From NCBI RefSeq assembly GCF_022483985.1, contig NZ_JAKVME010000002.1, positions 310,001-374,000 of the forward strand: 64,000 bases of DNA. The letters are read 5' to 3'. The stretch comes from Acetobacter sp. (GTDB lineage Bacteria; Pseudomonadota; Alphaproteobacteria; Acetobacterales; Acetobacteraceae). Below the pieces are notes generated by a model. The model saw only the letters and a list, made by a program, of their open reading frames with translations. It did no database searches and was not told where the DNA came from. This document shows positions 10,915 to 64,000 of this stretch, piece by piece; position 1 is the first letter of the stretch; every line of letters begins with the position of its first letter. Position numbers and translations under genes: made by a program.

Positions 10915-11652
10915 TCAGGCTGCGACGGTTTCCTGCTGTTCGGCGTGCTGCGCTACGACTTCATTCGTGTCCAGACGCTGGAACTGTTCGCGCAGCATGT
11001 AGCCCCGACCCCAGACGGTGGTGATGAGGTTGCCCGCGCCTGCTGCCTGAAGCTTTTTCCGCAGCTTGCAGATGAAAACGTCAATGATCTTCATCTCCGG
11101 TTCATCCATGCCGCCGTAAAGATGATTCAGAAACGCATCCTTGGTCAGAACCATCCCCTTGCGCAGGACGAGCAGTTCCAGAATGGCATATTCCTTACCC
11201 GTCAGATGAACAGGAGCCTCGTTCACCATGACTTCGCGGCTGTCGAGGCTGAGTTTGAGCGGTCCCACACGCAGGGTCGGTTCGCTGAAGCCCTTGGAGC
11301 GCCGCAGGATAGCCTGCATCCGTGCGACCAGTTCGTCCGGATCGAAGGGTTTCGTCATGTAGTCGTCTGCGCCGATGGAGAAGGCTTTCACCTTTGCCTG
11401 CGGGCGCGTCAGGCCGGAGAGGACCACCATCGGGGTTGTGACGCGTGCTGCGCGGGCCCGGCGGACGACCTCATATCCTTCGATATCGGAGAGCATCAGT
11501 TCCAGAACCGCGAGGTCATAATCATAGTGTCTGAGCATCTCGACGGCTTCTTCGCCGGACTGGACGTGATCAACCGTAAAGCCAGCCCCTTTCATGATCT
11601 GGGTGATTTCACCGACGGAAGAAAGATCGTCTTCAACGAGCAGAACGCGCAT
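10915..11652 (-). CDS. ctrA: CtrA-type cell-cycle response regulator with Glu at the phospho-acceptor position
   Basis: This 245-residue OmpR-type regulator has a receiver domain (1-120) and a winged-helix DNA-binding domain (130-230). It matches CtrA closely: MRVLLVEDD at the start, GADDYMTKPF around the conserved Lys, HLTGKEY, LRKG, FLNHLYGGMDEPEMKIIDVF and VWGRGYMLRE. CtrA controls cell cycle, division and flagellar genes in Alphaproteobacteria. The acidic pocket (E7, D8, D9) is kept, but residue 51, the phosphorylated Asp in Caulobacter CtrA, is Glu (codon GAA in YDLAVLELMLSD). The start 10 codons inside the longest frame matches the family. It is divergent from fliI; a CtrA half-site-like TTAACC lies between them at 11748. 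Confidence 0.92.
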   Translation of the reverse strand: MRVLLVEDDLSSVGEITQIMKGAGFTVDHVQSGEEAVEMLRHYDYDLAVLELMLSDIEGYEVVRRARAARVTTPMVVLSGLTRPQAKVKAFSIGADDYMTKPFDPDELVARMQAILRRSKGFSEPTLRVGPLKLSLDSREVMVNEAPVHLTGKEYAILELLVLRKGMVLTKDAFLNHLYGGMDEPEMKIIDVFICKLRKKLQAAGAGNLITTVWGRGYMLREQFQRLDTNEVVAQHAEQQETVAA

Positions 11653-11747
11653 GATGGTAACCCTTGGTTCGTTGTTGATCATTAGTTACCACCTTGGGTT
11701 GTATTGGTCTACGGAAATTTCACGTAAAGATTGTATAAAGATTCTTG

Positions 11748-11762: not shown

Positions 11763-11837
11763 ACGTAAATTGTCTTTTTTTTTATCTATTCCCTCCAGAA
11801 ACATCGGACCTGAATGGTCCCAACCGGAGAAAATCTT

Positions 11838-13247
11838 ATGAAACCGGATTTTCTCACGCAGGTTAACGCAACCTGTGCGAGCATTCCTGCAGCCATTGCG
11901 ACCGGACGCGTGACATCTCTGTCCGGTCTCGCCGTGACGGTGACAGGCCTTGGAAGTCTGGCGTCGGTCGGTGACCGGATATTCCTGATGCGGCGCAACG
12001 GCGCGCCGATTCCTGCGGAAATCATAGGTTTCTCCAATACCCACGCGCACGCCATGGCGTTTGGAAGTCTTGATGGGCTGGCAAGCGGCAGCGAAGTCCA
12101 GTTCCCCGTTTTCATCGGGTCGCGGGCCCCGAAGCCCGGAGGAAGCCTGCCTGTGTCAGCCGGATGGATCGGGCGGATCATTGATCCCCTTGGTCGTCCG
12201 CTCGACGGCAAGGGGCCTTTGCCACCGGGGCCCGTTGCCCGCCCGGTCCGCACCGCTCCTCCGGATGCGACACTGCGCGCCCGTCTGGGACCAAGAATCG
12301 ACCTTGGCGTCCGGGCCATGAATCTTTTCACCACATGCCGGGAGGGGCAGAGACTCGGGCTTTTTGCCGGGTCCGGCGTGGGAAAATCTACTCTGATGTC
12401 GATGCTCGCCCGTAATACGGCGTGCGACGTGGCCGTGATCTCTCTGGTTGGCGAACGTGGCAGGGAGGTCCGGGAGTTTGTCGAGGACGATCTGGGACCG
12501 GAGGGACTCGCCCGTTCCGTCGTCATTGTCGCGACATCGGATTCTCCTCCGCTCATGCGGCGGGAGGCGGCCTATGCGGCGCTCACCGTCGCCGAGTATT
12601 TCCGTGATGAAGGTCAGTCCGCGCTGCTGTTGATGGATAGCGTCACACGATTCTGTCAGGCGCTCCGTGAAATCGGCCTTTCCGTAGGGGAGCCTCCTGC
12701 GACACGGGGGTATCCTCCTTCCGTTTTCGCGGAACTGCCCCGGTTACTGGAGCGCGCCGGTCCGGGTATAGTGCGTCCTGACGGCTCCGCCGGGCAGATT
12801 TCCGCTCTCTTTTCGGTTCTCGTGGAAGGCGATGACCAGAACGAGCCGGTCGCCGATGCGGTGCGTGGTATTCTGGATGGGCATCTGGTGCTTGATCGTC
12901 GGATTGCGGAGACTGGCCGTTATCCGGCTATCGACATTCTGCGTTCACTGTCCCGCACTGTGCCCGGCTGCAATTCGGCTGATGAAAATGCCCTGACCCG
13001 TCGCGCCCGCGCCATTCTGTCCACGTATGCCGAGATGGCGGACATGATCAGGCTTGGCGCCTATCGGCCCGGAGCCGACGCCGCCGTTGATGAGGCCATC
13101 AAACTACGCCCGGCTATTGAAGCTGTTCTCTCACAGGGCCGCCATGAACACTTCACGCTGGAGCAGAGTTTTGCAGCATTGAGAGAAGCTCTTGCTGAAG
13201 TGCCCGTACAGGAAAACTCGGTCGCGGCCACGATGGCCGTTTCCTGA
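11838..13247 (+). CDS. fliI: flagellum-specific ATPase FliI
   Basis: FliI is the hexameric ATPase of the flagellar type III export apparatus. The 469-residue protein carries the Walker A loop GLFAGSGVGKSTLM at about 174-187, SLVGERGREVREF, LLLMDSVTRFCQALREIG and ATRGYPPSVFAELPRLLERA, the signature of FliI/SctN rather than F1-beta. The ATG at 11838 is chosen because GGAG lies 11 bases upstream; an in-frame start eight codons earlier has none. fliJ follows 38 bases downstream. No other flagellar gene is in the window, so this pair sits apart from the main flagellar cluster. Confidence 0.93.
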   Translation: MKPDFLTQVNATCASIPAAIATGRVTSLSGLAVTVTGLGSLASVGDRIFLMRRNGAPIPAEIIGFSNTHAHAMAFGSLDGLASGSEVQFPVFIGSRAPKPGGSLPVSAGWIGRIIDPLGRPLDGKGPLPPGPVARPVRTAPPDATLRARLGPRIDLGVRAMNLFTTCREGQRLGLFAGSGVGKSTLMSMLARNTACDVAVISLVGERGREVREFVEDDLGPEGLARSVVIVATSDSPPLMRREAAYAALTVAEYFRDEGQSALLLMDSVTRFCQALREIGLSVGEPPATRGYPPSVFAELPRLLERAGPGIVRPDGSAGQISALFSVLVEGDDQNEPVADAVRGILDGHLVLDRRIAETGRYPAIDILRSLSRTVPGCNSADENALTRRARAILSTYAEMADMIRLGAYRPGADAAVDEAIKLRPAIEAVLSQGRHEHFTLEQSFAALREALAEVPVQENSVAATMAVS

Positions 13248-23470: not shown

Positions 23471-24172
23471 TCAGACGCGCTGCATTGTCCAGACGACGCG
23501 ACCGATAATGGTCATGGCATGGCCGTCAGGCGATCCGAAACTGGCCTGATCCGCAGGGAAGGTTGCTGACTGATAGGCTGGGTTGTCGGACTGGACAAGA
23601 AAATCGCCGCTGGCTGTCCGGGAAACCCTTTTTACGAACAGACCGCCGTGCATCACGACGGCATAAACACCCTCTATTCGTGTTGAGGGCTGCGTATCAA
23701 CCAGCAGGCGGTCCCCGCTATGGATGGTCGGCAGCATGGAATCGCCATCAGCCGTGATCATGATCAGGCCCGAAGGCTGTAGTCCCAGTTCTTCCGTCAG
23801 GAAATTTCGTGGAAATTGTATGGGGTGACCGACGCTTTCCTCGCAGGTTCGGCCAAAACCGGCAGAGGCTCTGGCGTCGTAATAAACAACGGCGACTGAG
23901 GAAGAGAGCTTGGTCTCCCCTGTCCAAAGCCATTCGGGAGAAACGCCAAGTTCTCTGGATATTTCGTCAATTTTTGATGGTTTCCAGTCTGCTCCCGGTT
24001 TCTGGTATTTCCCGATCATGGACTCGGAAATCCCCGTAGAAAGATGCAGTTGCCGTGCTGAGCCGTAACGCTGGATGGCCTGCGTCAGTCTACCTTCGCG
24101 GGTAGAAAGATCGGGAGCTTCCTTCAGGGAAGGTCCACGGCGGCGGCGGAAGATTTTCTTTTCTTCCATCAT
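23471..24172 (-). CDS. XRE/S24-type phage-like repressor with self-cleavage domain
   Basis: The 233-residue protein has an N-terminal helix-turn-helix (GSARQLHLSTGISESMIGKY at about 37-56). A C-terminal LexA/CI-type peptidase domain follows: S145 in ADGDSMLPTI and K181 in GLFVKRV form the Ser-Lys dyad, and an Ala-Gly pair (A104-G105 in ARASAGFG) lies where LexA-type repressors cut themselves. Such proteins silence prophage or bacteriocin genes and are inactivated by RecA-ssDNA after DNA damage. It is divergent from two small genes at 24350-24924, the usual repressor/early-gene layout. Confidence 0.8.
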   Translation of the reverse strand: MMEEKKIFRRRRGPSLKEAPDLSTREGRLTQAIQRYGSARQLHLSTGISESMIGKYQKPGADWKPSKIDEISRELGVSPEWLWTGETKLSSSVAVVYYDARASAGFGRTCEESVGHPIQFPRNFLTEELGLQPSGLIMITADGDSMLPTIHSGDRLLVDTQPSTRIEGVYAVVMHGGLFVKRVSRTASGDFLVQSDNPAYQSATFPADQASFGSPDGHAMTIIGRVVWTMQRV

Positions 24173-24349
24173 GACAGGCTATGAGTTTGTTCAGGGAGGA
24201 TGTCTCTATAATAACATCTCTTTTGTGAGGTTTTTTGCTTGCATATATGATTAAAATAGCTCATATTTCTCTCCGAGGGACGGTTGGAAAATCGTTAAAA
24301 ACTCATAAAAGTCTAAAAATGGCAAAAGTCCTTACTCAATGGATGGTTT
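24173..24349. promoter_or_regulatory. AT-rich divergent control region of the S24 cluster
   Basis: This 177-base region separates the repressor from the rightward small genes and is much richer in A/T than the flanks. It contains CTATAATAACATC and TTGCATATATGATTAAAAT, plausible promoter and operator material, but no exact repeat pair could be fixed by eye. Repressor operators would be expected here. Confidence 0.35.
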
Positions 24350-24655
24350 ATGTCACAGATTGATCGTGAAAAACAAGCTCATTCGCGTTCGTATAATGGT
24401 CCAAATCCCATTCGTATGAATGATCAGGATTGGAATGTGATGATTTCAGCTCTTTCGAATGAGCAGAAAGAAGAGCTGAACGAACTTCGTCATCAGGCGC
24501 GGTGCTGTGCCCGGATGGCTGTTTCGGGGGCACAGGCCACGGCTGTAACGCTGGAAGTGGCTGAAACAGCCATGGAAGTTCTGCTGCGGACGTTAACGGA
24601 AATGGAAATCAGTTTTCCATTCGATGGTTTTTCTTTTTCAGGGAGCTACGCCTGA
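24350..24655 (+). CDS. small hypothetical protein, phage-like cluster
   Basis: The 101-residue product is mostly helical (MNDQDWNVMISALSNEQKEE, then QATAVTLEVAETAMEVLL) and has two adjacent cysteines (CC at 52-53). I do not recognise a family. It starts 177 bases from the divergent S24 repressor. Its TGA overlaps the next ATG by one base (TGATG), so it is co-translated with the helix-turn-helix gene that follows. Composition suggests transferred DNA. Confidence 0.6.
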   Translation: MSQIDREKQAHSRSYNGPNPIRMNDQDWNVMISALSNEQKEELNELRHQARCCARMAVSGAQATAVTLEVAETAMEVLLRTLTEMEISFPFDGFSFSGSYA

Positions 24656-24924
24656 TGGTCAGGAAATTTGAAGCTGGACGTGCGGAAGATCTGGGGAAGG
24701 CAGCCCAGACGCTGTACGCAAAAGGAAAGAGTATCCGTGCTATTTCAGAACAGATTGGCGCTTCACGGTCCTATGTGCATAGGATTTTGATGCGGGCGCG
24801 AACAGAGTATCTCGCGACGATGGTGAGTCAGCGTCGCATTGCGCAAGGCAATGATCCTTTGCCTCCGGGCAACATTATCAGCATGGGAGCGATAAGTTTA
24901 CATAATAGAAGGTGTGTTCATTGA
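24655..24924 (+). CDS. small helix-turn-helix protein
   Basis: This 89-residue basic protein contains a clear helix-turn-helix (KGKSIRAISEQIGASRSYVH, about 24-43, followed by RILMRARTEYL), like the C-terminal domain of Hin-type recombinases or sigma-4-like small regulators. It is coupled to the preceding gene by a TGATG overlap. In this setting it may be a Cro-like or activator partner of the S24 repressor (inference). The last ten residues lie in AT-rich sequence leading to the palindrome AATACGTATT. Confidence 0.6.
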   Translation: MVRKFEAGRAEDLGKAAQTLYAKGKSIRAISEQIGASRSYVHRILMRARTEYLATMVSQRRIAQGNDPLPPGNIISMGAISLHNRRCVH

Positions 24925-24980
24925 ATAATACGTATTAGTTTCTTTGTTAAAATATGCAATTTAAATAATTTTTAATACGA

Positions 24981-25169
24981 TTGATTGATGTTTATGCAAA
25001 TGATGCTGAGTATACAGCTTTGGTGAGCTATTTGCAGCCTGTGTCTCAAAGTGTATTCAGCCGTTTAAACGTTTCTCAGAAATTAGGTATAGAAATTTTT
25101 CTTCCATCTTCAGCTGATTTTCCGGTCGCCATATGGGAACATTATAAACCATATTTTTATTGCAATTGA
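24981..25169 (+). CDS. doubtful 62-residue ORF with TTG start
   Basis: An open frame starting at TTG reads LIDVYANDAEYTALVSYLQP and ends FYCN. There is no clear ribosome site and no family is recognised. It ends inside the promoter of the following gene (its last codons overlap the palindrome at 25167), which argues that it is either a remnant or not translated. It is listed because it is the only open frame in an otherwise empty 300-base AT-rich stretch. Confidence 0.25.
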   Translation: MIDVYANDAEYTALVSYLQPVSQSVFSRLNVSQKLGIEIFLPSSADFPVAIWEHYKPYFYCN

Positions 25170-25189
25170 TAATTGTTATCATTTATAGT
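25160..25189 (+). promoter_or_regulatory. sigma-70-like promoter whose spacer is a Fur-box-like palindrome
   Basis: TTGCAA at 25160-25165 and TATAGT at 25184-25189 are spaced by 18 bases. The spacer contains TGATAATTGTTATCA at 25167-25181, which matches the 7-1-7 Fur pattern (TGATAAT-N-ATTATCA) in 13 of its 14 defined positions. A repressor bound here would block the promoter directly. The expected transcript would start near 25196, just at the GGAGG at 25194-25198. Which protein binds is inference; alphaproteobacterial Fur-family proteins vary in target. Confidence 0.45.
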
Positions 25190-25238
25190 TCTTGGAGGAT
25201 ATGCATATTCTACCCATGATACATTGTGAAGTTGCAGA

Positions 25239-25493
25239 ATGAATCAGCTTTTCTGTGAAAAAACGGGTATGATAGAGTTGGATCCGGACTACTTTGATGA
25301 AATTACCGGTGGTGTAAACGCATCATTGGCGGGACAGGCGGCTGTATATGGCATTATTGGAGCCGCTGCCGTTACGGCGGCTGCCGGAACGGCGCTGGTT
25401 ACGGGGGCAAGTTATCTTGCAAAATGGGCATTCCTTCCACCGCTTCCTCCGGGACAGGAAGAGGAATACTATAGAAACAGTTTAACCAGATAA
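25239..25493 (+). CDS. double-glycine-leader, bacteriocin-like small peptide
   Basis: The 84-residue product has an N-terminal region ending MIELDPDYFDEITGG. Counted back from the Gly-Gly at 24-25, Ile is at -4, Phe at -7 and Leu at -12, the spacing of double-glycine (C39-peptidase) leaders. The following core starts VNASLAGQAAVYGIIGAAAV and is a long Gly/Ala/Val hydrophobic stretch to about residue 65, then LPPLPPGQEEEYY. This is the layout of class II bacteriocins or microcin-like secreted peptides. A 13-codon ORF from ATG 25201 overlaps the start in an ATGA arrangement. Tiny membrane-protein genes follow. No C39 transporter is in the window. The leader call is good; antibacterial activity is inference. 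Confidence 0.55.
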   Translation: MNQLFCEKTGMIELDPDYFDEITGGVNASLAGQAAVYGIIGAAAVTAAAGTALVTGASYLAKWAFLPPLPPGQEEEYYRNSLTR

Positions 25494-25593
25494 CAGGTAG
25501 GGTTTTCGGGTCGCGTATATGTTGAATATACACGGCCTGATATCGGATTTTCAAAAACAGGAATTGTTTTTCTATTGGAGAGAGTGTTTGCTG

Positions 25594-25827
25594 ATGAAAA
25601 TAGAAAAATATTCTCTATATTTGTTCATAATTTCTGAATTGATTCTTGTATTCAGTATAATGACGTATGAAAATTTTCAGAAGCAGGATAAATTTCTGTT
25701 TTCTGCAATGGCGATAGTTTTTCTGATATTTCCGTTCGGACTTTTGAAGGCGGACAGGCGCTTTAAATTGTTCTTTGTTGTAGGGATATTATATTCTTTT
25801 TTATGTCTGTGGGTTTCTTTTTCCTGA
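25594..25827 (+). CDS. small three-helix membrane protein, candidate immunity protein
   Basis: From ATG 25594 (GGAGAGAG eight bases upstream) the 77-residue product contains three hydrophobic segments: YSLYLFIISELILVFSIMT, FLFSAMAIVFLIFPFGLL and FFVVGILYSFLCLWVS, joined by short charged loops. Size, membrane topology and position 100 bases after a double-glycine peptide are those of bacteriocin immunity proteins, which sit in the producer's inner membrane. Such proteins have little sequence conservation, so there is no family match to lean on. Codon use is AT-rich like its neighbours. Confidence 0.5.
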   Translation: MKIEKYSLYLFIISELILVFSIMTYENFQKQDKFLFSAMAIVFLIFPFGLLKADRRFKLFFVVGILYSFLCLWVSFS

Positions 25828-25940
25828 ATCTGAATCTGATAACTCCGCTTTCTTACCTTGATATTTCAAGAGATTTATTGATCGTTCTGTTTTTCGTGCT
25901 TATGTTTTTTATTGCAAGATTTAAGAAATCCGAGATGTAA
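25803..25940 (+). CDS. 45-residue membrane peptide overlapping the candidate immunity gene
   Basis: An ATG inside the end of the previous gene, in another frame, opens 45 codons: MSVGFFFLNLNLITPLSYLD, then LLIVLFFVLMFFIARFKKSEM with one clear membrane helix and a basic tail. Overlap with the upstream gene is 25 bases. It is either a separate small membrane protein or the shifted continuation of a once longer four-helix protein. It is too short to identify by family. Confidence 0.4.
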   Translation: MSVGFFFLNLNLITPLSYLDISRDLLIVLFFVLMFFIARFKKSEM

Positions 25941-25954
25941 AAAGGGAGATTGTC

Positions 25955-26086
25955 ATGCAAGCGATCATTCCGCTTTTTGGCCGTCTCATTTTACATGGAA
26001 AGAAGGGCCTGAAGAACGCTCAGGCCCATAAATGTCGATCCGTAATCAGCCGCCCGCTTTTTTCGCCGCATCAAATGCGTCCATGA
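25955..26086 (+). CDS. possible 43-residue cationic small ORF
   Basis: AAAGGGAGA seven bases before an ATG is a strong ribosome site. The frame reads MQAIIPLFGRLILHGKKGLK and continues basic, ending in the convergent CMD gene. The first 23 residues are amphipathic and cationic, as in small antimicrobial or membrane-active peptides. A hairpin (GGGCCTGA ... TCAGGCCC at 26007-26029) inside the frame, likely the terminator of the opposite gene, speaks against a conserved coding role. Confidence 0.25.
   Translation: MQAIIPLFGRLILHGKKGLKNAQAHKCRSVISRPLFSPHQMRP
26007..26029 (-). terminator. hairpin downstream of the CMD gene
   Basis: GGGCCTGA and TCAGGCCC form an eight-pair stem with a seven-base loop, followed on the minus strand by a T-rich stretch. 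It marks the end of the minus-strand CMD transcript. Confidence 0.5.
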
Positions 26087-26402
26087 TGCGGGTCGAATAG
26101 ACAAGAGCCGCTCCCGCATTCAGGGCGATGGCGACGCTGAGAGCTTCACCAATCTCCTCACGGGTCGCGCCTGCCTTCACCGCTTCTTCCGCGTGAATGG
26201 TGATGCAGCCGTCACAACGGGTCGTGGCCGCGACAGCAAGTGCGATCAACTCCCGCGTCTTGGCATCCAGATGGCCGCTTTTCGCGCTGGCGCCGTTCAG
26301 GGCAAGGATACTTGCGACAGTGTCCGGCGCCACGGAATTGTAGGCGCCGATGGCCTTGCCAAGATGCTCGCGCCGCTCATTCCAGTCTGTCCAGTCAGTC
26401 AT
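26046..26402 (-). CDS. carboxymuconolactone decarboxylase-family protein (AhpD-like)
   Basis: This 118-residue helical protein has the CMD/AhpD core: LDAKTRELIALAVAATTRCDG with C63-x-x-C66 and H70 (CDGCITIH), then AGATREEIGEAL. The Cys pair and His are the thiol-disulphide catalytic centre of AhpD-like alkylhydroperoxidase partners, so an antioxidant role is more likely than a true decarboxylase. The start is set at ATG 26402, which gives the family's usual length; an upstream ATG adds 24 unrelated residues. It stands alone, divergent from zapE. Confidence 0.8.
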   Translation of the reverse strand: MTDWTDWNERREHLGKAIGAYNSVAPDTVASILALNGASAKSGHLDAKTRELIALAVAATTRCDGCITIHAEEAVKAGATREEIGEALSVAIALNAGAALVYSTRIMDAFDAAKKAGG

Positions 26403-26556
26403 GGCCTGAATTCCTCTGCCTTGGGTGAAATCACCCCACGATAGGCCGAGGTCCGGATAATGCCTCTTCACCACCGCGTGAGTATGTTGTCACGAGCGAG
26501 TGTGGCCTATTGTCACTCTCTTGCTGGTCACAGCAGGCATCGCTATCGGCAGAACC

Positions 26557-27795
26557 ATGGATACCATGAACAGACAGCCCCATTCCGCCCAGTCCCGGAC
26601 TTCTGGCCAGCCTCAGGCTTCAGGTCCATTTGCGCTGTATGAGGAACGCGTTGCCAGCGGCACGCTGCGGCGTGATCCGGATCAGGAGCGCGTCGCCAGA
26701 CGTCTCGACCGTCTGTGGGTCGAACTGGAGGCTTATCGCCCGGTCCCGGTCAGGCCGCAGGAAGAGCGCAAGGGGCTGCTCTCGAAACTCGTCAGCAAAC
26801 TGCCGGACCTGTTGAATCGGCCTGAGGAGCGCGCAGGCGACGGTATTCCGCGGGGGGTGTATATCGTCGGTCGTGTCGGTCGCGGCAAGACGATGCTGAT
26901 GGACCTGTTCTTTTCCTGCGTCACGATAAAGAAGAAGCAGCGTATCCACTTCCTGACCTTCATGCAGGAGGTTCATCAGCGCCTGAGGGCGCTCAAGGCG
27001 GCCAACCCGGGGATGAGCGATCCGATCCCGCCTCTGGCCCAGACCATCGCCCAGGATGCGACTCTGCTCTGTTTTGATGAGTTCCAGATCAACGATATTG
27101 CTGACGCCATGATTCTGGGGCGTCTGTTCGAGGCGCTGTTCGCGGCGAAGGTCATCATCGTCGCCACGTCGAACACCGTTCCCGGTGATCTGTTCCAGAA
27201 TCGTCCCGGTGCGGACGCCTTCAAGCCGTTCATCGCCATCATCCAGCGCCATCTGGATACGGAAGTGCTGGATTCGGAAACCGATTATCGCCGTGGACGC
27301 GAACAGGACGACACGACATGGATCGTGCCGGCCGACGAGACGGCCAGACGGCGTCTCGACAGGATCACGGCGCGTTATGGGGAAGGTCATCCGGTGGAAA
27401 AGGTGACTCTGGAATTCAGTGGCCGGTCCCTGCCGGTGGATCACAGTCAGGGACCGGTAGCGCGTTTTGATTTCACTTCTCTGTGTAGTAGGCCGCTGGG
27501 ACCAAACGATTATTTGGCAATTGCCAGAAAATTTCCCGTTATTGTGATGGACGATATTCCACCCCTTGGACCCGACGATGCGAACGTCGCCAGACGCTTC
27601 ATCACATTGATCGACGCCTTGTACGACAACGGCAATTTGCTGTTCGTCTCCGCCGATGACTCCCCGGATAACCTGTTCCCGTCAGGGGAGGGAGCGGACG
27701 CATTCGCCCGTACGGCATCCCGTCTCATGGAGATGAGCAGCGAAAGCTGGCTGGCCCGCGCCCATGGTCCCGGAGGTGTCCTCTCCAGACCGTGA
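26557..27795 (+). CDS. zapE: cell division ATPase ZapE (AFG1 family)
   Basis: This P-loop ATPase of about 412 residues has Walker A GRVGRGKTMLMDLFF at about 105, the family phrase RIHFLTFMQEVHQRL, Walker B TLLCFDEFQINDIADAMIL at about 168, VIIVATSNTVPGDLF and the C-terminal FDFTSLCSRPLGPNDYLAIA. ZapE interacts with the Z-ring under stress in E. coli, and its eukaryotic relative AFG1 works in mitochondrial protein quality control. The exact start is uncertain: ATGs at 26500, 26557 and 26566 are all in frame and none has a strong ribosome site; the first would add a membrane-like segment. Confidence 0.88.
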   Translation: MDTMNRQPHSAQSRTSGQPQASGPFALYEERVASGTLRRDPDQERVARRLDRLWVELEAYRPVPVRPQEERKGLLSKLVSKLPDLLNRPEERAGDGIPRGVYIVGRVGRGKTMLMDLFFSCVTIKKKQRIHFLTFMQEVHQRLRALKAANPGMSDPIPPLAQTIAQDATLLCFDEFQINDIADAMILGRLFEALFAAKVIIVATSNTVPGDLFQNRPGADAFKPFIAIIQRHLDTEVLDSETDYRRGREQDDTTWIVPADETARRRLDRITARYGEGHPVEKVTLEFSGRSLPVDHSQGPVARFDFTSLCSRPLGPNDYLAIARKFPVIVMDDIPPLGPDDANVARRFITLIDALYDNGNLLFVSADDSPDNLFPSGEGADAFARTASRLMEMSSESWLARAHGPGGVLSRP

Positions 27796-28085
27796 CAGCC
27801 CGATGGCTTGTCGTGTGTTTTTCGGCGGTCTAGCAAATTCGGCAGTAACCCGGCCGCGACCGGGTATGGCCGGGTCATCCGGTCGTGGAATGGAGACAGG
27901 CAGGTCATGGAGATATTTGCAGACACGCAATCCTTCCGCCTGAAGTCGATTTTCTGCGATCAGGTGACCACTTCTTCAGCTTTGGACGTAACAGTCATGT
28001 CGAAACGGCCTATCGACCGGTTTGGGGAGGTGTCACACAGGAACATCTCAGCGAACCTGAGAAGAAACACAGGAGCGTTCTGAAA

Positions 28086-59916: not shown

Positions 59917-60303
59917 TCAGAATCGCGGAGGCCGCTCTTCCGCATGGCACGCATGACAAGCCCGAACCGGTCCTGAAGCCCGCTTTTCCCGCTTTAGCTT
60001 CAGGTGACAGCCTTCACATTGCTGATGAAACTGTCGCTCGATGATCGGGGCCAGTTCTGGCGTCTTCTTGTGGCATTCAATACAATGCTGAAATGGCCAT
60101 GACGCCAGTTTGGGCTCGGTATAATTATGGTGGCAGACCACGCAGTTGAATGCGCCATGATCCTGATGCGTAAAGGTCAGCGGCATCAGAGGCAGTGATT
60201 GCGCTGAGTACGGAGCCCCGCTGACGCTCCACCAGACCGCACCGCCGACAATGCTGGCTGCGGCACAGACTGCCGCGATGCTTAATCGCGCGTTGCGTCG
60301 CAT
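59917..60303 (-). CDS. small secreted tetraheme cytochrome c
   Basis: The 128-residue protein starts with an uncleaved or cleaved membrane anchor (RLSIAAVCAAASIVGGAVWW). Four CxxCH haem sites follow: C54-V-V-C57-H58, C74-I-E-C77-H78, C96-E-G-C99-H100 and C116-H-A-C119-H120, with several further histidines as distal ligands. It resembles class III or NapC/NrfH-like small multihaem carriers. The ATG overlaps the stop of the upstream membrane gene by one base (TAATG), so the two form one unit, probably a quinol-to-periplasm electron pathway. Confidence 0.82.
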   Translation of the reverse strand: MRRNARLSIAAVCAAASIVGGAVWWSVSGAPYSAQSLPLMPLTFTHQDHGAFNCVVCHHNYTEPKLASWPFQHCIECHKKTPELAPIIERQFHQQCEGCHLKLKREKRASGPVRACHACHAEERPPRF

Positions 60304-61016
60304 TATCTGTTGAGCCACATGGCGCATAATACCGGCACAAGCAGCCCGACACACCCCAGAATGATGACCACAGGCACGGCCAGCGCGGCCGTATTTCTCA
60401 GACGCTTCTCGCCCCGGCGACTCTGAACCGGCAAGGCCCGTACCAGCAACGGTACAGCCAGAGCCAGCGCACTCATCCCGACCAGGCTGAATGTCAAGGC
60501 AGGTGTGGCGATCCGAAAACCCGCCTGCCATGCATGAAGGCCGGTCACACACAGCAGGATCGCCGCCAGACCGTAATGGCAGTAACGGAAGATGCGGGCG
60601 TTACGGAAAACAGCCAGCTTCCAGCGGGGTTGCGACACAACAGCAAGAATGACAAGAAGCAGGCTGGCGAGAGCACCCGTTTGCATGACGGGCAAGACGG
60701 GCGGCCAGATGTCGCGCCAGAGCAGAGGTTCCGCCCACACGCCTCCGATCACATGCGCGATGACCAGTAAAAGGATCAGGTAGGCCGTATATTCATGCAG
60801 GCGGAGGAAGAACCTTCCTTCATACACAGGCCTGTCAAGTGGTCGACCTGTGAGAAAAAACATCTGGAAAAGCGCGAATAGGGCGGAATAACCGCCGATC
60901 ATCGTAACATCCCATAGGCCTGCTGTGCCGGGTTGTCCCGCCGCAAAGACGCATACCAGCAGGAATGCGGTGCAGAGCAGCGCGAGCAGTGCAGCGAGAG
61001 CGATCCATCCCGGCAT
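60303..61016 (-). CDS. b-type di-haem membrane cytochrome
   Basis: The 237-residue protein has about six membrane helices. Two helices carry His pairs at the same 13-residue spacing (H74 and H88 in LHEYTAYLILLLVIAHV; H147 and H161 in CHYGLAAILLCVTGLH), the bis-histidine pattern of cytochrome b561 or ferric-reductase-like proteins, so two b haems are likely. It is translationally coupled to the tetraheme cytochrome downstream. Together they could oxidise quinol and reduce a periplasmic acceptor. The specific acceptor is unknown; no catalytic subunit is in the window. Confidence 0.7.
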   Translation of the reverse strand: MPGWIALAALLALLCTAFLLVCVFAAGQPGTAGLWDVTMIGGYSALFALFQMFFLTGRPLDRPVYEGRFFLRLHEYTAYLILLLVIAHVIGGVWAEPLLWRDIWPPVLPVMQTGALASLLLVILAVVSQPRWKLAVFRNARIFRYCHYGLAAILLCVTGLHAWQAGFRIATPALTFSLVGMSALALAVPLLVRALPVQSRRGEKRLRNTAALAVPVVIILGCVGLLVPVLCAMWLNR

Positions 61017-61274
61017 GATTTCCGTTCTTGTTGCGGTATCATTTCATTGAAGAGCGATACCGCAAAGGTCAGAAGGAGGGAATGAGGGTAGACATAGCTC
61101 GTTTTGTATTTTGAGAAATCGTCACGATTTTCGTTTGCAGCAAGATTGCGGAGACAAGGAACAACACAATGGCGAAGATGAGATCAGGGTGGTAAGCTCA
61201 GTAGTAAAAAATATCTATATGTAGAAAACGGGCCTTTACAGGTGATCTATAATTATAGAAGTAACATTTTATGG
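61017..61274. other. upstream region of the cytochrome pair
   Basis: About 260 bases without a supported gene; the minus-strand promoter for the cytochrome genes should lie here. Composition becomes AT-rich towards 61250 near the tRNA fragment. Confidence 0.4.
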
Positions 61275-61302
61275 TGGTGCGAACTGCGGGACTCGAACCC
61301 AC
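61275..61302 (-). other. tRNA 3'-end fragment, probable attachment site
   Basis: The minus strand reads GTGGGTTCGAGTCCCGC (a complete T-arm), then AGTTCGC, A and CCA, that is the 3' acceptor half of a tRNA. No matching GCGAACT acceptor half or anticodon arm is found on its 5' side, where only unrelated AT-rich sequence lies. This is what remains when a mobile element integrates into a tRNA gene and duplicates its 3' end. It marks the left border of the island that continues past the right edge. Confidence 0.65.
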
Positions 61303-61543
61303 TGAAGTAAATCGCACAGCCCATAACATCCTGTTTTCAAAAAAATTCTGAATACTTGTGTAAGAGTCTGTGTAAGACTTTGTGTGAAATCGGTCAAGGA
61401 TTTTGAGGGTGGCAAACTGAGCTATCTCAATACCCCTGAGGCGTTCCATAGAGTGCTCAGGTTGCTCCAGTTCTCGCCAGCAGGTTACAGTCTCAGGAGG
61501 GTATGTGACTACGGAGTAGCGGTAAGTGTCTTGAATTGACCTT
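61303..61543. other. island border region without a clear gene
   Basis: The 240 bases hold repeated GTGTAAGA-type words (TTGTGTAAGAGTCTGTGTAAG) and a minus-strand frame of no recognisable family. It may be the remnant of an integrase 3' end or of the disrupted tRNA neighbourhood. Confidence 0.35.
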
Positions 61544-62167
61544 GTGGTTCCTTTTGCTGAGAAAGACGAAGCCAAGGCTCTCGGTGCCAGATGGGATGGC
61601 GTTGCTCGCGTCTGGTATGTTCCGGCTGGCAAAGACTCCGCTCCATTTAATCGCTGGCTTCCAAAAGTCATTGAGCCGGATGTCAGGGCGCAAAACTACT
61701 ATATCTCCCAGTCGTCCACACCGTGCTGGAAATGCGAAGGCATTACCCGCGTCTATGGCTTCATCCTCTCCGGTTCCTATGAAGTTAGCGAGTGGATTGA
61801 AGGGGAGGACGATAATGACGAAGGAACCATTGTATGGGACGAATGGACTGATACGACGGTCCTGTCATACCTGAGAGGTTTGCCGGACGCTGTTCTTCAG
61901 CGAGTCAAGCAAGTCAGTCCTCATTGGTATATGGATAGTTCCAGGACCGTCTCTGAACCCTATCTGATGAACCATTGCGAGCATTGTAAAGCCAAGCTGG
62001 GTGATTTTGAGACCATTGAGGAATCTGATTCACCTCTGCATCCGATATACCCGGAGTCAATTTCCCGGATGAGCATCATGGAGGTAGGTGAGCCGTTTTC
62101 GGCTTCAGCTTCCTACGGTATCAGCACCGGGCCGGATTTGATTTCTGTGGGTGCAAAACAGGTTTGA
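61544..62167 (+). CDS. DUF5710-domain protein with two CxxC pairs, possibly 5'-truncated
   Basis: The 207-residue product starts VPFAEKDEAKALGARWDGVA followed by RVWYVPAG, the DUF5710 domain found in plasmid and phage primase- or helicase-associated proteins. Usually a few residues (a Tyr-Leu-Asn/Asp) precede VPF; here the open frame upstream gives only IDL before a TGA, so the start is GTG 61544 or an unusual ATT, or the gene is cut at its 5' end. Further in, two CxxC pairs (TPCWKCEG and HCEHCKAKLG) suggest a zinc site. It is the first gene after the tRNA fragment. Confidence 0.6.
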   Translation: MVPFAEKDEAKALGARWDGVARVWYVPAGKDSAPFNRWLPKVIEPDVRAQNYYISQSSTPCWKCEGITRVYGFILSGSYEVSEWIEGEDDNDEGTIVWDEWTDTTVLSYLRGLPDAVLQRVKQVSPHWYMDSSRTVSEPYLMNHCEHCKAKLGDFETIEESDSPLHPIYPESISRMSIMEVGEPFSASASYGISTGPDLISVGAKQV

Positions 62168-62205
62168 TAAATTTTCTATAAAGTTGGAAGGTTTTTGAGT
62201 TTAAA

Positions 62206-62952
62206 ATGAATGGTAAACAGAAAAAAGAATTGGAGAAAATTTCGTCAGAAATAGAAAGGAAAATTTCTGAGATATCTTCTGATTGCCAGTCTATTGTGAG
62301 GGATTTTATCGAATACATCGGTGATGATGTTAAAAAAACATTTTCTGACAATATGAAAAACTGGACAGTATCGTCCGGAAGTATTATGTGGGTTATTTTT
62401 ATCTATATACTATATAAATTTATCCCTCAATTATTTGGTTTTAGTTATAAAACTGTTAATGATGTAAATGGTTCTGAGGGCGTATTATTGTTTTTAATAA
62501 CTATATGTTCTGCTATGATGCTTTTATCTCAATTTTATGTATTGGTTAGTAAGGCGGTTCCTTATTCTATAGGATGTGTTGTTGATCCAATTTTGAATGA
62601 AATAGAAAATATAAAAAAATATAAAATAAATGATGATGACGCAAAAATACTAATTGATAGTTGTGTGAAAAAGCAAAGAATATTTATTATAATGTCTTAT
62701 GAGAAAACATTGAACTCTATGTTTTCGAAAAAGGAAAATATTCTACTTTTCGATTTTGTGGTTTTAGCTGTCATCATGATTTCTATGGCTGCTTTTGTAT
62801 CAAAAAGAGAAATGATATCGGCCTGTTATCCTAAAACTATGGATGAATTGATCCTTGATCCCACAGGAGAAAAATGTTCAAATGAAATTAAAGCATGGAA
62901 ATTAAGAAAAACTCCTGAAAAAATCAAAAAGAATGCCGACAAAAAATCTTAA
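62206..62952 (+). CDS. AT-rich membrane protein of unknown function
   Basis: The 248-residue product has a charged N-terminal coiled coil (KKELEKISSEIERKISEISS), two adjacent membrane helices (SIMWVIFIYILYKFIPQL; LLFLITICSAMMLLSQFYVL), a central soluble domain with NDDDAKILIDSCVKKQ and a third helix (LLFDFVVLAVIMISMAAFVS) before a basic tail. No family is recognised. GC content is far below the chromosome, as for the whole island. Position between a DUF5710 gene and a recombinase suggests mobile-element cargo. Confidence 0.6.
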   Translation: MNGKQKKELEKISSEIERKISEISSDCQSIVRDFIEYIGDDVKKTFSDNMKNWTVSSGSIMWVIFIYILYKFIPQLFGFSYKTVNDVNGSEGVLLFLITICSAMMLLSQFYVLVSKAVPYSIGCVVDPILNEIENIKKYKINDDDAKILIDSCVKKQRIFIIMSYEKTLNSMFSKKENILLFDFVVLAVIMISMAAFVSKREMISACYPKTMDELILDPTGEKCSNEIKAWKLRKTPEKIKKNADKKS

Positions 62953-63068
62953 TCGCCGGTTCTGTTGTTCTGTCCCAAAATCACCTGGTTTTGTTACACT
63001 GTTCCTGAGACCACCAACCAACACGGATGGAATGCATTCAATGCACCAGAAACAGGACAAAAATCACC

Positions 63069-63641
63069 ATGGAACGCTATGGATATATGAGGGTCAGCAC
63101 ATCGAAACAGACCACTGACAGCCAGTTCACCGACCTCACCAAGGATGGCGTTGTGCCGGACCACATCGTCGCGGAAACCCTGTCCGGTTCCCTGCCATGG
63201 AGGTCACGTCCTCGGCTTCGGAAACTGATCAGACGACTGAAACCGGGTGACTCTTTGACCGTCGCAAAAATAGACCGGCTGGGTCGCAATGCCATTGATG
63301 TCCTGACACTGGTGGAGACCCTGAAAAAACGAGACATTTCCGTCAGAATACTGAATCTCGGTATAGATACCTCCGGTGCAGGCGGGAAGCTGTTTCTGTT
63401 GCTTCTGGCCGGGTTCTCGGAGTTCGAACGCAATATTATTCATGAACGGATTATGTCCGGTCTGGAAACCGGAAGAGCCAAAGGCAAACGCCTTGGCAGA
63501 AAACCCATCCTGTCCCCGGAAGAAGTCTCTCACATCCACCGTCTGAGGGATCAGGGGCTGTCCATCAGAGCTATCAGTGACACCGTTCAGGTATCAAAGA
63601 TGACTGTCTGGAGAGCACTCAGGACACCCACAGCGGTCTAA
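63069..63641 (+). CDS. serine recombinase (resolvase/invertase family)
   Basis: From ATG 63069 the protein has 190 residues. The catalytic domain has R8, S10 and the conserved YGYMRVSTSKQTTDSQFTDL start, VAKIDRLGRNAIDVLTLVET, GAGGKLFLLLLAGFSEFERN and IIHERIMSGLETGRAKGKRLG. A C-terminal helix-turn-helix (QGLSIRAISDTVQVSKMTVW) ends the protein. This is the small resolvase/DNA invertase type (Hin, Tn3 resolvase). It serves inversion or cointegrate resolution of the mobile element in which it sits. Confidence 0.92.
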   Translation: MERYGYMRVSTSKQTTDSQFTDLTKDGVVPDHIVAETLSGSLPWRSRPRLRKLIRRLKPGDSLTVAKIDRLGRNAIDVLTLVETLKKRDISVRILNLGIDTSGAGGKLFLLLLAGFSEFERNIIHERIMSGLETGRAKGKRLGRKPILSPEEVSHIHRLRDQGLSIRAISDTVQVSKMTVWRALRTPTAV

Positions 63642-63807
63642 CTATGTTCAGCATCATATATTCATATTATGCATTAAACACATATTCCGGAATCAGGTGA
63701 TTCAGAGATAACGTCCGGGGAACATATCTTATTTCCGGGGACTCTGTTCATCATGACCGCCAGTATAAGAGCCTGTTTTTGGCTTTCTTCCGTGATTCTA
63801 TAGTCAA
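63642..63807. other. spacer after the recombinase with a short direct repeat
   Basis: TCCGGGGA occurs twice (63714-63721 and 63735-63742, the second preceded by ATTT). Such short repeats beside a serine recombinase gene can be res or invertase sites, but no crossover dinucleotide palindrome could be assigned. Confidence 0.3.
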
Positions 63808-64000
63808 ATGGACATCACGATTTTTGGAAAACCGTTCTGGATATACGGAATCGAAGGAACGGTTTACGGATTACGAAAATGGACTTCCACATCCGTCGAG
63901 ACCACCGGAACAGCCACGACCTATGAAATTGCTCCGGGCGTTTACCGAACGGATGGCCCCAAAGCCACGAGCACCATTAACCAGTACCAGGAGTGCTGGA
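63808..64000 (+). CDS. hypothetical protein, 3' end outside window
   Basis: ATG 63808 opens a frame that continues through the right edge (64 codons). The beginning MDITIFGKPFWIYGIEGTVY and later VETTGTATTYEIAPG is beta-rich. No family is recognised. It belongs to the same island as the recombinase. Confidence 0.5.
   Translation, partial: MDITIFGKPFWIYGIEGTVYGLRKWTSTSVETTGTATTYEIAPGVYRTDGPKATSTINQYQECW

Follow-up and report, generated by a model that had tools for sequence, protein, structure and literature searches.

In the window, by which we mean the whole stretch of 64,000 nucleotides analysed in this study, the complement of positions 10915-11652 encodes CtrA, a protein of 245 residues (MRVLLVEDD...YDYDLAVLELMLSDIEG...TKPF...). 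The sequence-only reading that preceded this study had placed here a CtrA with glutamate at residue 51, and translation of the minus strand confirmed this: residue 51, numbered from MRVLL, is Glu with the codon GAA, and the plus strand of the same positions yields no CtrA when translated. The claim that E7, D8, D9 and the pocket lysine (K101) are kept held up in the alignment, and S79 is present as well. An alternative in-frame ATG lies at 11682, 10 codons upstream of the MRVLL start. The features of the locus are as follows.

10915-11652, minus strand: ctrA, 245 residues, the only CtrA of the genome (translation, single copy, NF045991, Pfam)
11500-11502, minus strand: codon 51, GAA (Glu), replacing the phospho-acceptor Asp (sequence)
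11299-11652, minus strand: receiver domain, residues 1-118, predicted normal receiver fold (AlphaFold block pLDDT 88-98, match to 4qpj_C)
11626-11634, minus strand: acidic pocket E7-D8-D9, intact (alignment)
11350-11352, minus strand: pocket lysine K101, kept (alignment)
11416-11418, minus strand: S79, the Thr/Ser switch position, kept (alignment)
10987-11280, minus strand: winged-helix DNA-binding domain, residues 125-222 (alignment; conservation of helix 187-203)
10918-10923, minus strand: C-terminal Ala-Ala, possible ClpXP degron (tail also in A. musti and G009)
11814-13247, plus strand: fliI, named by sequence reading, divergent neighbour of ctrA (flagellar synteny)

Pfam found a receiver and a Trans_reg_C domain in the protein. 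The NCBIfam CtrA model NF045991, whose short name RespRegCtrARhodob points to one order, was its top family by far, with 343.2 bits, 7 bits below the cut-off of 350. AlphaFold predicted a normal receiver and winged helix (mean pLDDT 87, pTM 0.58), and the predicted receiver matched 4qpj_C, the CtrA receiver of a solved phosphotransferase complex, with a TM score of 0.96 (target length). The CtrA of Caulobacter sp. AP07 was 55% identical to the window CtrA. The genome that contains the window (3.71 Mb, 3 contigs, 99.9% complete) holds this CtrA only; a second, canonical copy with Asp51 was looked for and none was found, the next best of the 25 matches being a receiver regulator 35% identical. 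The gene stands head to head with fliI, with thiD adjoining, in both the window and Acetobacter musti, and the order fliJ-fliI / ctrA / thiD / glmM is the same in the two (these names were assigned by reading sequences). Among 77 loci with longer flanks, fliI was near ctrA in 6 of the 17 with E51 and in 24 of the 52 with D51. This flagellar synteny identifies the window gene as the CtrA orthologue. Elsewhere in the window, the G+C content is 0.54-0.63 over most of its length, 0.505 at 24001-28000 and 0.47 at 60001-64000, and the low value of the last segment suggests that it may be acquired DNA.

The closest named relative is A. musti LMG 30640, whose CtrA is 91% identical over residues 1-228 and 86% in the whole alignment, a match that points to Acetobacter as the genus of the window. 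It also has Glu51, but with the codon GAG, and the receiver dS between the two was about 1.26, with silent sites near saturation. The nearest sampled genome, G009 (CtrA 75% identical), has Glu51 with the codon GAA. The Nei-Gojobori dN/dS between the window and A. musti came to 0.067 for the receiver and 0.022 for the DNA-binding domain, dS being above 1. Silent sites thus turned over while Glu stayed, which indicates that Glu51 is conserved and is neither an error nor a recent mutation. Although ctrA is broken or gone in some relatives (a partial match with an internal stop in G062, no CtrA-level match in G117 and G210), there is practically no chance that Glu51 is a sequencing error, a recent point mutation or a mark of a decaying pseudogene, since A. 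musti and G009 share it, its codon has changed synonymously and the receiver dN/dS is about 0.07. What the residue is not is fixed in the genus. Of the genomes with the window's genus code, G030 has D51 together with D9K, G169 and G242 have H51, and G117 and G210 gave no CtrA-level match in searches with the window protein and a profile. The expectation of Glu51 in relatives was therefore borne out for A. musti and G009, and failed for the genus as a whole.

A sample of 249 genomes drawn evenly from the family was searched with the window protein and a 23-row profile. Of the resulting 219 CtrA loci, 217 came from as many of these genomes, one came from A. musti and one is a further copy in G232; 28 genomes gave no CtrA-level hit, and the partial or atypical hits of G004, G089, G217 and G247 and the second CtrA-level matches of G015, G016, G059, G125, G176, G204, G168, G193 and G229 stand outside the locus set. 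Residue 51 was D in 154 loci, E in 45, R in 9, H in 2, A in 2 and N, G, Y and S in 1 each (Y from a partial locus, L220), with 3 unread, so that 17 of 219 loci carry a residue other than D or E. A tree of 213 of these sequences was built with the pocket columns excluded; L054, L055, L212, L220, L221 and L341 were left out as partial, unread at 51 or second copies. The window CtrA fell in a clade of 57, which by inference comprises the acetic acid bacteria and their near kin. Several inner groups are well supported, and the outer limit of the clade is uncertain because its base has a low SH-aLRT of 50.

Within this clade, residue 51 is E in 41 members, D in 11, A in 2, H in 2 and N in 1, so D51 is lost in 46; D8 is lost in 47, D9 in 15 and K101 in 23. 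All members except G013, which keeps all four, are without at least one of D8, D9, D51 and K101 (56/57). A clean D51E, with the pocket canonical except for residue 51, is found in the clade only in the window, A. musti and G009. Judged from the sequences, pocket erosion is a property of the whole clade that was reached by many routes, and it is wider than, and different from, "a natural D51E". The CtrA tree has further lineages with an eroded site: an R/S clade of 9, G081/G146, G148, G168 and G053/G179. The long-branch group of nine (L057, L206, L208, L210, L213-L215, L218 and L219), with R or S at 51, Ala79 and no pocket Lys, is among the most eroded CtrAs, and one of its genomes, G232, has a second copy (L341).

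To see which parts of the protein changed, the clade was compared with 123 canonical family CtrAs, selected because their pocket is intact and their genome has ChpT; the pocket columns of this set are thus conserved by construction. Columns outside the selection criteria (54, 55, 59, alpha1 and the beta4-alpha4 loop) also lose conservation in the clade. The ratio of column identity, clade to canonical, was 0.41 for alpha1, which we take to be the docking face for the phosphotransferase, 0.46 for the acidic pocket loop, 0.56 for beta3 and the loop after it (around residue 51) and 0.25 for the beta4-alpha4 loop. It was intermediate for alpha2 (0.65) and alpha3 (0.59), so that drift reaches beyond the input face. 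On the output side it was 0.77 for alpha4, 0.90 for beta5, 0.87 for alpha5, 0.95-0.96 for the first DNA-binding helices and 1.00 for helix 187-203, presumably the DNA-recognition helix. D96, D97, R111, R117 and R118 are invariant (57/57), E107 is kept in 56 and K87 in 50 of the 57; we take these residues to form the OmpR-type dimer face (alpha4-beta5-alpha5). By these ratios, decay is strongest on the input side, and the output side is preserved.

ChpT was searched with Pfam PF10090 in the 249 genomes, A. musti and G232b being outside this search and counted as none. Matches at E<=1e-3 were found in 157 of the 249 genomes and in 0 of the 6 with the window's genus code. At E<=1e-5, a match stood alongside 124 of 154 D51 loci, 1 of 45 E51 loci (G133), 0 of 17 loci with other residues and 1 of 3 unread loci. 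Because ChpT is divergent, an in-family profile was made from eight family ChpTs and applied to 80 genomes (G228, a member of the 57-clade, was left out). It found one true ChpT, in G164 (3e-53), whose CtrA has D51 and a full pocket. No ChpT-level match was obtained in the 56 of 56 clade genomes searched, the window genome and A. musti included (best 9e-12). In the window genome neither PF10090 nor the in-family profile found a ChpT, and the best in-family score, 1.4e-7, lay inside a 746-residue frame. All 13 weak hits that were checked, the window genome's included, were rejected as ChpT and are histidine kinases (HisKA and HATPase_c).

There are exceptions to this association. PF10090 (E<=1e-5) had no hit in 16 full-pocket genomes, some of which are incomplete and one of which, G164, has ChpT by the in-family profile; G133 has E51 with ChpT, G103 has lost D8 and has ChpT, and G013, inside the 57-clade, has a full pocket without ChpT. 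The CtrA of G133 (L039, genome 88% complete) carries E51 in an intact pocket in a genome with a ChpT hit, and it is possible that it represents an early step, with E51 arising before relay loss. In an independent-pairs test of site loss against ChpT loss, on average 1.8 pairs were for and 0.3 against, with a median p of 0.5. Since this is not significant, we claim one large clade and further lineages, not significant convergence; the association is largely that of one clade, and the Fisher tests (p below 1e-28), which ignore relatedness, were not taken as proof. Other observations were made around chpT and ctrA in the family. In G062 the partial ctrA match (L054) spans residues 63-225 of the query and contains a TAA, and the genome has a ChpT hit; G137 and G223, of the same genus code as G062, have ChpT hits without a CtrA-level match. 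An open reading frame with a CheA/HPt-like start, by sequence reading, lies directly downstream of chpT at L064:1-543 (minus strand).

For CckA, the NCBIfam model NF046020 scored 474-1449 bits in 7 of 8 named genomes outside Acetobacter; the eighth, a Geminicoccaceae MAG, gave 258 and the window genome at best 277. L385, a kinase of the family that does fall inside the CckA clade, scored just 326; with this and the Geminicoccaceae value so low, the presence of a CckA cannot be judged by score alone. When a kinase tree was built, the named CckAs grouped with the kinases of the ChpT-bearing genomes G045, G006, G018 and G164 (support 100), and the two best kinases of the window genome both fell outside this clade. 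One of them, a PAS-HisKA-HATPase_c-receiver kinase of 746 residues (C1:2430984-2432111), lies next to the clade on a long branch (support 85) and, as far as its sequence tells, is possibly a fast-evolved CckA. This kinase (L165:1375-3612, minus strand, C1) is also found in A. musti, G169, G242 and G030, 58-73% identical and with a conserved neighbour.

The order flhB-cckA-recA is present in G006, G018 and G164, cckA-recA in G055 and flhB-cckA in G045. In five genomes of the 57-clade (G009, G025, G022, G071 and G056) and the separate lineage G168, flhB and recA are 43-260 bases apart without cckA between them. This gene order agrees with cckA loss, and the excision is seen in these relatives, not in the window genome. 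The recA gene of the window genome has neither flhB nor cckA beside it in flanks of up to 1.5 kb, and the same holds in A. musti and nine further genomes. This layout alone proves nothing, since G084 and G045, with D51 and ChpT, are among these genomes. G148 gave no RecA match and G013 was left out of this comparison.

CpdR (NF046022) had no match in the window genome at E<=1e-20. Since all 13 of the family genomes searched for it stayed below the cut-off, a missing CpdR is no peculiarity of E51. The search of the genome for relay genes thus ended with no chpT match and no cpdR match, and for cckA with the best kinases outside the clade and one of them beside it. The proposal that this CtrA is independent of the CckA-ChpT relay is well supported by this genome content: no ChpT, no kinase inside the CckA clade and a single CtrA.

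In Caulobacter CtrA, the C-terminal Ala-Ala is a ClpXP degron. The CtrAs of the window, A. musti and G009 end in ...VAA, and an Ala-Ala end is kept in 10 of 57 clade CtrAs and 78 of 123 canonical ones; going by this tail, regulation of the window CtrA by proteolysis is possible. The binding motif of CtrA is of the TTAA-N7-TTAA type. With at most one mismatch allowed, the window held 11 matches, and none of them lay between ctrA and fliI; the mean was 4.8 in 100 shuffles, of which one reached 11. Across 64 genomes the motif had no clear enrichment over a reversed-pattern control in most (19 against 42 in the window genome) and exceeded it in a few (10 against 0 in G132). These motif counts were set aside as evidence.

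Flagella as the sole reason for CtrA retention were rejected: CtrA is kept without an FlhA match (cut-off E<=1e-100) in G169 and G242 (H51) and in G008 and G073 (E51), so its targets are not only flagellar. G210 (1.7 Mb, the window's genus code) has an FlhA match over the cut-off without a CtrA-level match, and is perhaps a flagellated relative without CtrA. Beside flhA in the window genome lies an FlbD-like regulator (L071:2587-3912, minus strand; NF050807, 601 bits, cut-off 750), whose receiver-like N terminus is, by eye, also without the usual acidic motif.

From the observed residues, the gene absences seen as far as the searches reach, and the observed pattern of conservation, we believe, with a probability of roughly 0.7, that the window CtrA is a true orthologue that has turned into a phosphorylation-independent pseudo-receiver regulator and is no longer a phosphorelay output. 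The ancestor of the 57-clade would have lost ChpT and, it seems, CckA, and CtrA would have been retained under purifying selection. The receiver would have shed the parts by which it received phosphate: the acids that bind Mg, Asp51, in many cases Lys101, and the docking face on alpha1. The parts that serve output would have been retained, both the dimer face (alpha4-beta5-alpha5) and the DNA-binding domain. We infer constitutive DNA binding by the CtrA of this clade, most likely as a phosphorylation-independent OmpR-type dimer whose activity would be set by its abundance. The window, A. musti and G009 show the mildest possible change, D51E alone with E7, D8, D9, S79 and K101 still there, and Glu51 may hold their receivers partly active through contact with Lys101 and Ser79. 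Passages of PMC12186491 and PMC6363796 call the laboratory CtrA D51E phosphomimetic in Caulobacter and Rhodobacter, and Glu51 may play such a role. Passages of PMC4395418 state that Asp-to-Glu alone is often not activating in other regulators, and that in ChxR binding was not abolished when Glu was replaced.

There is a real, if lesser, chance that Glu51 mimics no phosphate, that unphosphorylated CtrA is the working form and that, after loss of the relay, position 51 tolerates many residues. Clade members with H, A, N or D at this position, mostly without D8, still retain CtrA, and a passage of PMC6363796 says that unphosphorylated CtrA of Rhodobacter capsulatus activates its own target. On the other hand, 52 of 57 clade members have an acid (D or E) at 51, and the window lineage keeps D8, D9, S79 and K101 together with E51. 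As to the order of events, we consider it doubtful that D51E came first, made CtrA constitutively active and so rendered CckA and ChpT dispensable, after which they were lost and the pocket drifted, with the window lineage as a preserved intermediate. If this order were true, the clade would show the dismantling of a cell-cycle phosphorelay without loss of the master regulator.

It is unlikely that the receiver now senses another input, such as a ligand, a partner protein or redox state, by which CtrA would still be switched without phosphate. Against it, the loops around the former pocket rank with the least conserved parts of CtrA in the clade (ratio 0.25-0.56), and in passing no newly conserved surface and no partner gene came to attention. 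For it, the receiver has a predicted fold and strong purifying selection acts on it, and passages of PMC12632262 describe direct inputs of this kind for some pseudo-receivers. Direct phosphorylation by another kinase, on Glu51 or a neighbouring acid, is very improbable: hybrid kinases do remain in the window genome, one of them CckA-like in build, but the phospho-acceptor is gone, 47 of the 57 clade members are without D8 as well, and alpha1, the docking face, has strongly drifted (0.41).

That relay genes are missing in the Rhodospirillales has been reported before. Passages of Brilli et al. 2010 (PMC2877005) report that relay members were absent from their Rhodospirillales cluster to varying extents and that no chpT was found there, and suggest that another phosphotransferase might stand in for it. 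In passages of PMC8116508, ctrA, gcrA and ccrM are present in 72-82% of Rhodospirillales genomes and chpT, cckA and divL in only 27-36%, for which lower selection or difficult identification is suggested there. Among the matches listed for the open-licence literature, no report of phospho-acceptor loss in CtrA was found, and PMC4395418 and PMC12632262, both on pseudo-receivers, mention CtrA 0 times; a pseudo-receiver CtrA in relay-less cells is new, as far as we found.

CtrA is taught as a phosphorylation-controlled master regulator, and this clade, which keeps it without the phosphotransferase, the phosphorylation site and apparently the kinase, is a natural test of which of its functions need phosphate; of the clade's members at least Acetobacter is culturable. 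Compared with the CckA-ChpT-CtrA system of Caulobacter and other Alphaproteobacteria, the window CtrA is alike in its domains, DNA-recognition helix, dimer face, Ala-Ala end and flagellar-gene synteny, whereas it has no phospho-acceptor Asp and its genome no ChpT or CpdR match and no CckA-clade kinase. With the laboratory CtrA D51E of Caulobacter and Rhodobacter it has this substitution in common as the single change in a pocket that is intact elsewhere; in contrast, the window D51E is natural and old, and occurs in three genomes and in a cell without ChpT. With its predicted receiver fold and Glu in place of the phospho-Asp, it fits the class of aspartate-less or pseudo-receiver regulators (such as Rem of Agrobacterium, RitR, ChxR and GlnR), which are likewise OmpR-type and without phospho-Asp; according to a passage of PMC4395418, Glu is the commonest substitute in aspartate-less receivers (26%). 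How such regulators turn on and off is described in part of PMC12632262 as an open question of the field. Unlike that class, CtrA is a single orthologue group that spans a working phosphorelay output and a pseudo-receiver, and since this one group holds phosphorylatable, bare D51E and H/A/N/R forms, it offers a test of that question.
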